Part shown: piece by piece, positions 36,852 through 38,552 of the stretch
How the letters are laid out: each line of letters opens with the position of its first letter
Numbering within the stretch: the stretch's first letter is position 1
Assembly: GCF_023705585.1 (NCBI RefSeq)
Contig: NZ_BOQE01000001.1
Coordinates: 273,642-337,641 of the forward strand
DNA: 64,000 bases
Source of the DNA: Collibacillus ludicampi
GTDB lineage: Bacteria > Bacillota > Bacilli > Tumebacillales > BOQE01
Reading direction: 5' to 3'
The notes under the pieces: generated by a model
What the model saw: only the letters and a program-made list of their open reading frames with translations
Told to the model about the DNA's origin: nothing
The model's database searches: none
Translations under genes and position numbers: made by a program

Positions 36852-36883
36852 GAAAAGAAAGCAGGTGCTTTCTCGCACCTGCT
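36852..36883 (-). terminator. Terminator after yedF
   Basis: A perfect 9-bp stem AGCAGGTGC/GCACCTGCT (36875-36883 with 36860-36868) is followed on the minus strand by TTCTTTTCTC. It ends the yedE-yedF transcript, which supports yedF being a real terminal gene. Confidence 0.85.
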
Positions 36884-36904: not shown

Positions 36905-37147
36905 TTATTTTGGAACACGGATATAAAAATATAAATCTTGTCCTCTTCTTTCCGGTTCCTGAATGAGCTCATACCCATGCTTCACCACTTCTTCCGGAAC
37001 ACTGCGGAACGATTGAGGACAATCTGCAATCACTTGCAGAACCTGTCCTGCCTTCATATCCTGTAGCGCCTCCAGCGCATACATGACAGGATACGGTCAG
37101 GGTTCCCCGCGTATGTCCAATATGAAATCAATTTTGATCTGATCCAT
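36905..37147 (-). CDS. yedF: TusA/YedF-family protein with in-frame TGA (candidate selenocysteine)
   Basis: Reading from ATG 37147 (GAGGTGAT eight bases before) gives 80 codons. The product is a complete TusA/SirA fold protein: FILDIRGEP, then TGA at 37097-37099, then PYPVMYALEALQDMKAG, VLQVIADCPQSFRSVPE and a YFYIRVPK end. In the family this position is the cysteine of CPxP, the catalytic sulfur or selenium carrier, so the TGA replaces exactly that residue. A stem-loop with bacterial SECIS features follows at once. The gene is 15 bp downstream of yedE and 21 bp upstream of a terminator. Alternatives are a nonsense mutation or a sequencing error; restart at the ATG five codons later would lose the motif. 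Confidence 0.8.
37057..37093 (-). promoter_or_regulatory. SECIS-like stem-loop downstream of the TGA
   Basis: On the minus strand, starting 3 bases after the TGA, TATCC pairs with GGATA, then TGTA with TACA and GCGC with GCGC. One five-base bulge and one single T bulge are on the 5' side, and the apical loop is TGGAG. The loop begins 22 bases after the TGA and has G at its second position. Both fit the published bacterial SECIS pattern (loop 16-37 bases away, G among its first two bases), as I recall it. Confidence 0.65.
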
Positions 37148-37162
37148 CACCATCACCTCACG

Positions 37163-38398
37163 CTATTGGCCCAATTTCTGCGGGACGAACTTCTCTCCCT
37201 TGACTTGCAATCCTTTACCAAAACGGTAATGTTTTTCCCACCAGGAGGAAAAGAGATACCATACAATCAGGAGCGCAAGCGTACCTATAAGCGCTTGAGG
37301 AGCTCCCCATTCAGTGATCAAGTTAATCGCAGGCCATCCTTTCACCAGTGCCGTGTAAATTCCAAGATGATCCCACGCATAAGCGAGAAGAGTAGCCCCT
37401 ACGATATTCCCTAAGCCAACCATCCAGAAATGGACTTGCCCTTCCATCGCCCGGTACATCATTCCTGTTTCACATCCACCGGCCATAACTATACCAAGAC
37501 CGAAGAGCAGTCCACCGATCAATGTGCTCGGAGCAGCGACTTTTATCAACGCGTGAGCTCCGCTTTGTATGAAAATGAATGTCAAAACGACACTCAACAT
37601 CATCCCGACGGCCAATGCTTTTGTCATAACCGCACGTCCGGTTAACCAAAGATCACGAAAGGCTGAAGTAAAACAAATTTGACCTCTTTCAATAAAGATC
37701 CCAAAACAAGCCCCGAATAATCCGGCTATTGCGAGAAGAGATTTTCCTTTAACGATGTATGAGACCAAAATTACCAGATAGATCATTGCGATGAGAATAC
37801 CTAAGTACGTTTGATAACGGGGGGATTTTTCCTTTGTTTGATCATTCATTGCGCTCATGCGTACGCGTTGAAGATTCGGTTTTCCCCGCCACCAGGAGGT
37901 ATTCACGACTTTCACGCCTAGATAGGTTCCAACCGCCGTAGCCACCATGAAAATCCATGCATGAAAGGAAAACTGCGGTACACCTGTGAAGAAAGCGGCA
38001 AGATTGCATCCCAATGCGAGACGTGCTCCGAAGCCAGCAATAATCCCACCGATGAAACCTTGAATGAGACGACGTTTTTGCCTGGGAACACGGATCTTAA
38101 AGCTATTGCTAAGCAATACGGTGATCATGGCACCGACCAGCATTCCAATCACAATCCAGCCATCGGTGCGATCAAGTGGTGTTCCCTGCATCTTGATCAT
38201 TTGAAAATAAGCCCATTGGGAAACATCGACATGAAAAAGCTGTAAGAGATGACCGCCTAACCGCGTAAATTCGCCTGTCACTGCCCAAACCGTTCCCGTG
38301 ATTCCGAAGAACAGTGCACTGAAGATTCCTGCTAAACCTATCGCAACGTAAGGGTTCCAATACTCGCGAAATACTTTGGTCATGATCCATCGGAACAT
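37163..38398 (-). CDS. yedE: YedE/YeeE family transporter, putative selenium transporter
   Basis: The 411-residue membrane protein has about ten hydrophobic helices and two copies of the YeeE/YedE repeat, with GFGARLALGCNLAAFFTG and VMAGGCETGMMYRAMEGQ, each with a conserved membrane cysteine. Family members move thiosulfate-type or selenium compounds. YedE beside a TusA-like YedF has been linked to selenium use by comparative genomics. The ATG at 38398 follows GGGAGGGAGG. It forms an operon with yedF. The TGA in yedF favours the selenium reading over sulfur. Confidence 0.88.
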   Translation of the reverse strand: MFRWIMTKVFREYWNPYVAIGLAGIFSALFFGITGTVWAVTGEFTRLGGHLLQLFHVDVSQWAYFQMIKMQGTPLDRTDGWIVIGMLVGAMITVLLSNSFKIRVPRQKRRLIQGFIGGIIAGFGARLALGCNLAAFFTGVPQFSFHAWIFMVATAVGTYLGVKVVNTSWWRGKPNLQRVRMSAMNDQTKEKSPRYQTYLGILIAMIYLVILVSYIVKGKSLLAIAGLFGACFGIFIERGQICFTSAFRDLWLTGRAVMTKALAVGMMLSVVLTFIFIQSGAHALIKVAAPSTLIGGLLFGLGIVMAGGCETGMMYRAMEGQVHFWMVGLGNIVGATLLAYAWDHLGIYTALVKGWPAINLITEWGAPQALIGTLALLIVWYLFSSWWEKHYRFGKGLQVKGEKFVPQKLGQ

Positions 38399-38552
38399 TG
38401 TGTAACCTCCCTCCCGTCTGTACGATTCAAATAGATGCATAAGGATTAGTTGTTATACATGATATAAAAATATTTCATCGAAGTAAATACAGATAACCTC
38501 GAGAATCCACGGGAGAAATCGTTCTTAAACATCCCCCATGCAATATCCCATG

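Follow-up and report, generated by a model that had tools for sequence, protein, structure and literature searches.

Comparative genomics has tied YedE, YedF and SirA-like proteins to SelD and selenium metabolism (PMC5322559, PMC2432076), and the same reports link the two-domain YedF/SirA-like proteins to SelD, YedE and selenocysteine lyase. A STRING link of YedE with SirA-like proteins and selenocysteine lyase has also been described, and Lin et al. proposed that YedE exports selenium and that YedF has a redox function (PMC5322559). When transporter genes, yedE among them, were deleted in Methanococcus maripaludis, none could be tied unequivocally to any selenium species (PMC11097638). In the YeeE-YeeD system, the Cys of the CPxP motif of YeeD reacts with thiosulfate and may carry a persulfide, and the crystal structure places this residue close to the thiosulfate path of YeeE (PMC11073785). 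A 2026 review describes both the form of selenium used by SelD in cells and its delivery system as incompletely elucidated (PMC13188914).

The locus analysed here lies in a 64-kb stretch of the genome of Collibacillus ludicampi, referred to below as the window. In an initial annotation, a TusA/YedF gene of 80 codons had been proposed at 36905..37147, with a lone in-frame TGA at the Cys of its CPxP motif and the rest of the protein intact, and this gene was confirmed by translation, by Pfam and by the NF008242 model. The span had been given in plus-strand numbering with the strand left unstated; its limits hold, but it is the minus strand that carries the gene, and a plus-strand frame over the same positions was rejected, as the span read in that direction contains no gene. 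The Shine-Dalgarno sequence, the 15-bp gap after yedE and the terminator 21 bp past the stop could all be read from the sequence as described there (Table 1). With TGA translated as U, the product has 80 residues, MDQIKIDFILDIRGEPUPYPV..., followed by TAA, and the context of the TGA is RGEP-TGA-PYP.

Table 1. Features of the yedF locus, in coordinates of the window.
Feature	Position	Strand	Remarks
yedF	37147 -> 36905	minus	80 codons plus TAA, single in-frame TGA; Pfam TusA, NF008242
Predicted selenocysteine codon TGA, codon 17	37099-37097	minus	Position of the Cys of CPxP
Predicted bacterial SECIS upper stem-loop GCGC-UGGAG-GCGC	37066..37078	minus	nt 19-31 past the TGA
Shine-Dalgarno sequence GAGGTG	37159-37154	minus	6 nt ahead of the ATG at 37147; read from sequence
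Terminator-like hairpin, 9 bp, then T-rich tail	36860..36883	minus	Begins at 36883, 21 nt beyond the yedF stop; read from sequence
yedE/fdhT, membrane protein gene directly upstream of yedF	37163..38440	minus	Stop ends at 37163, 15 nt from the yedF ATG; NF033796

The product matched the Pfam TusA domain (2.5e-19) and, with Sec written as Cys, scored 101.7 bits with the single-domain YedF model of NCBIfam, NF008242 (cut-off 79), which makes it a member of that family. Its scores were under the cut-offs of the two-domain YedF model TIGR03527 (22.3 bits, cut-off 110, 57 of 194 positions), of the TusA equivalog NF001423 (38.9 bits, cut-off 78) and of the TsuB/YeeD model NF041048 (27.1 bits, cut-off 147.5). 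The closest solved relative by sequence was 1JE3 (7.9e-17), which we take to be the YedF of E. coli and in which GEPCPYP occupies the corresponding position. The gene upstream was assigned to the selenium-type YedE, which is a predicted selenium transporter, by the NCBIfam model NF033796 YedE/FdhT (575.3 bits, cut-off 350), and thiosulfate transporter models gave no score above their cut-offs with it. Two further frames with a TusA domain were detected in the host genome, both of them without a stop, and no match to Rfam at its gathering threshold or by ARAGORN was obtained within the 64-kb window.

The host genome (4.09 Mb in 7 contigs, 99.87% complete) contains selA (618 bits), selB (391 bits) and selD (418 bits), all above the cut-offs, and also, outside the window, a tRNA-Sec of 67.8 bits. 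The tRNA-Sec model is unspecific when used alone, with matches in 14 of 14 control genomes and above the cut-off in five of them, and two other host loci scored barely above it; the locus called tRNA-SeC by ARAGORN, with anticodon tca, is the one of 67.8 bits. The selD gene of the host (L017, G000:C1:206557-207480, minus strand) adjoins selA and has an in-frame TGA of its own, in EKAGUGCKIGP, so that SelD is likely a second selenoprotein of this genome, as predicted from its sequence. Formate dehydrogenase was also considered for this place and was rejected as unsupported, its best match having an in-frame TAA. That match to the alpha subunit (L133, G000:C1:2391339-2393378, plus strand) scored 622.7 bits, under the cut-off of 666.25; its active-site residue, judged by the motif, is presumably Cys and not Sec, and the TAA marks either a broken gene or an error.

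The distribution of the TGA was followed in a set of 61 genomes, 60 relatives plus the host, which is contained in a class sample of 398 genomes. A close orthologue was present in 11 of the 61, including the host, with 94-168 bits, and in each case the gene contains a single TGA, always at the same codon. In the class sample, at an orthologue threshold of E <= 1e-12, 30 orthologues were detected, of which 17 contain a single TGA and 13 are free of in-frame stops. Because the codon at the site is TGA in 17 of the 30 and TGT or TGC in the other 13, with no other codon in any of the 30, the presence of TGA at the Cys codon is, on this alignment, more than chance. By their codes, the 17 TGA genomes represent 11 genera in 10 families. 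All 17 have selA, compared to 3 of the 13 Cys genomes and 85 of the 398 class genomes overall; the hypergeometric probability of this association is 1e-12 if genomes are counted and 3e-5 if genera are (selA in 60 of 145 genera and in 11 of 11 TGA genera), the latter being the safer figure, as genomes are kin. The candidate selenocysteine of the initial annotation is thus supported, both by the presence in the genome of selA, selB, selD and the tRNA-Sec and by homologues that have Cys or TGA only.

In a phylum sample, also of 398 genomes, eight matches were obtained, the host with TGA and seven more that all have TGT or TGC, and no TGA form was found in that sample outside Bacilli. When one of these phylum Cys forms was taken as the centre of a further class search, four genomes were covered and two matches obtained, with no TGA. 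The search of sequence records with the pattern GEPUP[YF]P[VI]...L[DE]AL, in which TGA was demanded and third positions were left free, is a narrow one that would miss diverged Sec forms elsewhere, and it returned 55 named records, at least 9 of which repeat class genomes. Their titles are those of Bacillus-type genera (Neobacillus, Mesobacillus, Cytobacillus, Robertmurraya, Schinkia, Aneurinibacillus, Brevibacillus, Tumebacillus and others) or of Bacilli/Bacillota bins. In a single genome, a lone stop in an intact frame could look the same if the gene were decaying or the sequence wrong, but recurrence of this TGA in those records and across 11 genus codes of the class sample (17 genomes), together with purifying selection on both sides of it (see below), reduces a pseudogene or a sequencing error to a negligible probability. 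Sequencing error, in particular, is untenable, because other species share this TGA and, past it, a conserved hairpin.

In a tree of 89 rows, at least four changes between Sec and Cys are required, two of them forced by supported branches; the tree was built on 79 columns, leaves many forks unresolved and does not settle the direction of the changes. Both forms occur under one genus code, L052 with TGA and L054 with TGC, which were grouped with one more Cys row at 100/95. The protein is kept in L054, with only two of the four pairs of the hairpin.

A TGA could also be read through as an ordinary amino acid such as Trp, by a suppressor or near-cognate tRNA and with the hairpin acting as a readthrough element, and Trp does stand at the site in 6 of the 20 database relatives examined, of 84. 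However, selA is present in 17 of 17 TGA genomes, and the codon that alternates with TGA is TGT or TGC, never TGG, in 13 of 13 Cys forms of the class and 7 of 7 of the phylum. Furthermore, TGA is in ordinary use as a stop in the window, where it ends 9 of the 38 frames of at least 250 codons, and the Trp forms themselves are taken as gene calls made under a code in which TGA is Trp. Readthrough of this kind is therefore considered very improbable, and decoding as selenocysteine is preferred.

On the 3' side of the window TGA, the order is CCGTATCCTGTCATGTAT, then GCGC-TGGAG-GCGC. The published model of the bacterial SECIS (bSECIS), as given in the available text, has an apical loop of 3-9 nt on an upper stem of 4-16 bp, a G within the first two places of the loop and 16-37 nt from the UGA to the loop (PMC13188914). 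The window element agrees with this model, its loop starting at +23 with a G at +24 on a stem of four G-C pairs. The model is permissive: the window contains 2473 TGA triplets, both strands counted, of which 57% pass if G-U pairs are allowed, 20% with Watson-Crick pairs and 1.2% with four G-C pairs. The fold of the single sequence was modest (z -2.33, with 6 of 200 shuffles as good). A longer lower stem of the window copy, TATCCTG/CAGGATA, was not seen in the relatives read by eye and is not claimed, and no sequence common to the hairpins of yedF and of the host selD was seen by eye.

The hairpin was compared over 72 rows (17 from the class sample and 55 records, 9 of which repeat a class row), corresponding to 62 distinct 60-mers. 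Every one of the 62 distinct TGA forms retains the four pairs as well as a loop UGGA[U/G/A], the outer pair being G-C in 57 and A-U in 5, with joint change of its two sides, and all four pairs are found in 0 of the 13 Cys forms. One Cys form from a genome with selA (L068, in G217) retains three of the four pairs and the loop UGGAG, which is either a remnant of a former Sec version or a coincidence favoured by high GC.

Inside the hairpin, Leu is encoded by CTG and the second Ala by GCG in each of the 62 distinct TGA forms, whereas CTG accounts for 20% of Leu codons and GCG for 21% of Ala codons in the yedE genes alongside. By yedE codon frequencies GCG-CTG-GCG would be expected at 1.2 of 70 loci, and it was observed in 66 of the 72 rows, the remaining six having ACG-CTG-GCG. 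Substitution rates were calculated over 60 distinct genes, 69 of the 72 rows having enough DNA. For pS, the 12 codons preceding the TGA gave 0.80, the next five past it 0.66, the six hairpin codons 0.16 and the remainder of the gene 0.81; pN/pS was 0.195 ahead of the TGA and 0.200 downstream of the hairpin. Therefore, the frame appears to be translated across the TGA, and the hairpin to be selected as RNA.

These values also bear on whether the true product might be a short C-terminal protein starting past the TGA, as in the databases, where fragments of 45-66 aa are indeed deposited, some of them under the name 'sulfurtransferase TusA family protein'. Such a product would not account for the 12 codons ahead of the TGA, which are under the same protein selection as the rest (0.195 vs 0.200) and encode a sequence like LDIRGEP in the orthologues, and it would leave the conservation of the hairpin without a role, so it is regarded as most unlikely. 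An ordinary stop, decay and a sequencing error are excluded, on comparison of the sequences, because of the split between TGA and Cys, the co-occurrence with selA and the conservation of the hairpin in TGA forms only. The TGA of yedF is thus predicted, with near certainty, to be read as selenocysteine. The reading as a whole, in which the TGA at the CPxP Cys would be decoded as Sec by means of the hairpin and this small TusA-like carrier likely takes up selenium, is given a probability of about 0.85.

Regarding the neighbourhood, yedE was found upstream on the same strand at 90 of 92 loci, a count in which some organisms enter twice, and the two loci without it hold only 76 and 1 nt of upstream sequence. 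At L025/L111 and at L094, the yedE beside the TGA yedF was detected as two separate tblastn matches, a split that suggests a frameshift or an indel. An in-frame TGA is also present in selD in 18 of the 28 yedF genomes that have this gene, divided into 15 of 16 with a TGA yedF and 3 of 12 with a Cys yedF; the exception among the former, G284, has a selD without TGA. The two yedF genomes without a selD match are G054 (TGA form, in 280 contigs) and G162 (Cys form).

Because of this context of YedE and SelD and of what is described for YeeE-YeeD, a role of YedF in selenium delivery seems likely by analogy, and the odds that delivery is what the protein does are put at about even. A serious alternative, with a chance somewhat under one half, is that Sec is inserted into a YedF with another task, such as handling sulfane sulfur, detoxifying excess selenium or reactive sulfur, or maturing formate dehydrogenase. 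Redox and detoxification roles were in fact proposed by Lin et al., who cite FdhU in Campylobacter (PMC5322559), and sulfur is carried by relatives of TusA (PMC11073785). Moreover, 10 of the 13 Cys forms belong to genomes without selA, although selD was found in 9 of these 10. Against such tasks, the neighbour is recognised by the model for selenium-type YedE but passes no cut-off of the models for thiosulfate transporters, and selD is present in 28 of the 30 yedF genomes.

In the proposed mechanism, SelB would bind the GCGC-UGGAN-GCGC hairpin and bring Sec-tRNA-Sec to the UGA. As in YeeE-YeeD, YedE would carry a species of selenium, or of sulfur, to the face of the membrane, where Sec17 would accept it as a perselenide- or selenosulfide-like adduct. 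YedF would then hand the selenium to SelD, itself a predicted selenoprotein here, and SelD would make selenophosphate for SelA; such a supply line would need its own product to run. That Sec17 may take selenium at YedE and pass it to SelD is proposed because of the analogy with YeeE-YeeD and of the links to SelD from comparative genomics. More speculatively, Sec-containing YedF could be the missing dedicated selenium carrier, selenium passing from YedE to the Sec of YedF and from there directly to the Sec of SelD, in a relay made by the same pathway that it supplies, which would act as a self-amplifying switch governing how Bacilli use selenium.

The statement in the initial annotation that SirA-like proteins are among the known or proposed Sec-containing families was not borne out by the catalogues of 2022 and 2026, as far as their available text goes (PMC9312934, PMC13188914). 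The accessible part of the 2026 catalogue, of 119 prokaryotic selenoprotein families, has no TusA/SirA/YedF or PF01206 entry, nor was any mention of SirA, TusA, YedF, pfam01206, COG0425 or PF01206 found in that text (PMC13188914), and the 2022 table, in the part available, has no TusA/SirA/YedF selenoprotein (PMC9312934). Both tables list SelD, YedE, DsrE-like and rhodanese selenoproteins. No report of a TusA/SirA/YedF protein with Sec was found among the paper listings and the mostly openly available main texts searched, passages of deep-Sep included (PMC12013277). Sec-containing YedF thus seems to be a selenoprotein family not yet described, one that derives from a Cys protein already known.

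The gene had also been expected to escape annotation pipelines altogether, which is not the case: a 50-aa C-terminal fragment identical to the product over its length (P0021, 100%) is present in the protein collection. The 84 relatives collected there are mostly complete Cys forms or fragments of 45-66 aa that lack the N-terminal part, besides forms in which Trp stands at the site. Among the fragments, P0023 from Aneurinibacillus terranovensis has 59 aa and is named 'sulfurtransferase TusA family protein'. Trp occupies the Sec position, as GEPWPYP, in P0002, P0004, P0006, P0007, P0008 and P0012, which are probably gene calls in which TGA was read as Trp. A Sec-aware YedF model could correct this annotation.

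A YedF with a predicted Sec at its reactive site, encoded beside yedE in genomes where selD is nearly always present, is a concrete candidate for the question of how SelD is supplied. If the prediction is true, a likely selenium-supply protein would itself contain selenium. The natural Cys and Sec versions, found even within one genus code (L054 and L052), provide a ready comparison.

Among the known systems, the single-domain YedF (NF008242; 1JE3 as relative) is like the window protein in length, TusA domain, GEPxPYP motif and score above the cut-off, and differs from it in having Cys where the window yedF has the TGA of the predicted Sec; the hairpin behind the TGA is a feature of the window gene. 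The two-domain YedF/SirA-like proteins (TIGR03527), for which Zhang (2008) and Lin (2015) described a link with SelD, share the SirA-like domain with CPxP, whereas their C-terminal DsrE-like domain is absent from the 80 aa of the window protein. In YeeE-YeeD (TsuA-TsuB), which serves thiosulfate uptake, a Sulf_transp membrane protein is paired with a small TusA-like partner that has a reactive CPxP, and the same pairing is found in the window. However, the window pair scores far below the cut-offs for TsuA and TsuB/YeeD and its residue is a predicted Sec; the likeness is one of working only. Finally, the Sec forms of SelD and of YeeE/YedE differ from the window YedF in fold and motif (UxxK, GUxSG), but they are likewise proteins of selenium metabolism or transport that have Sec in some prokaryotes (PMC13188914), as is predicted here for YedF.
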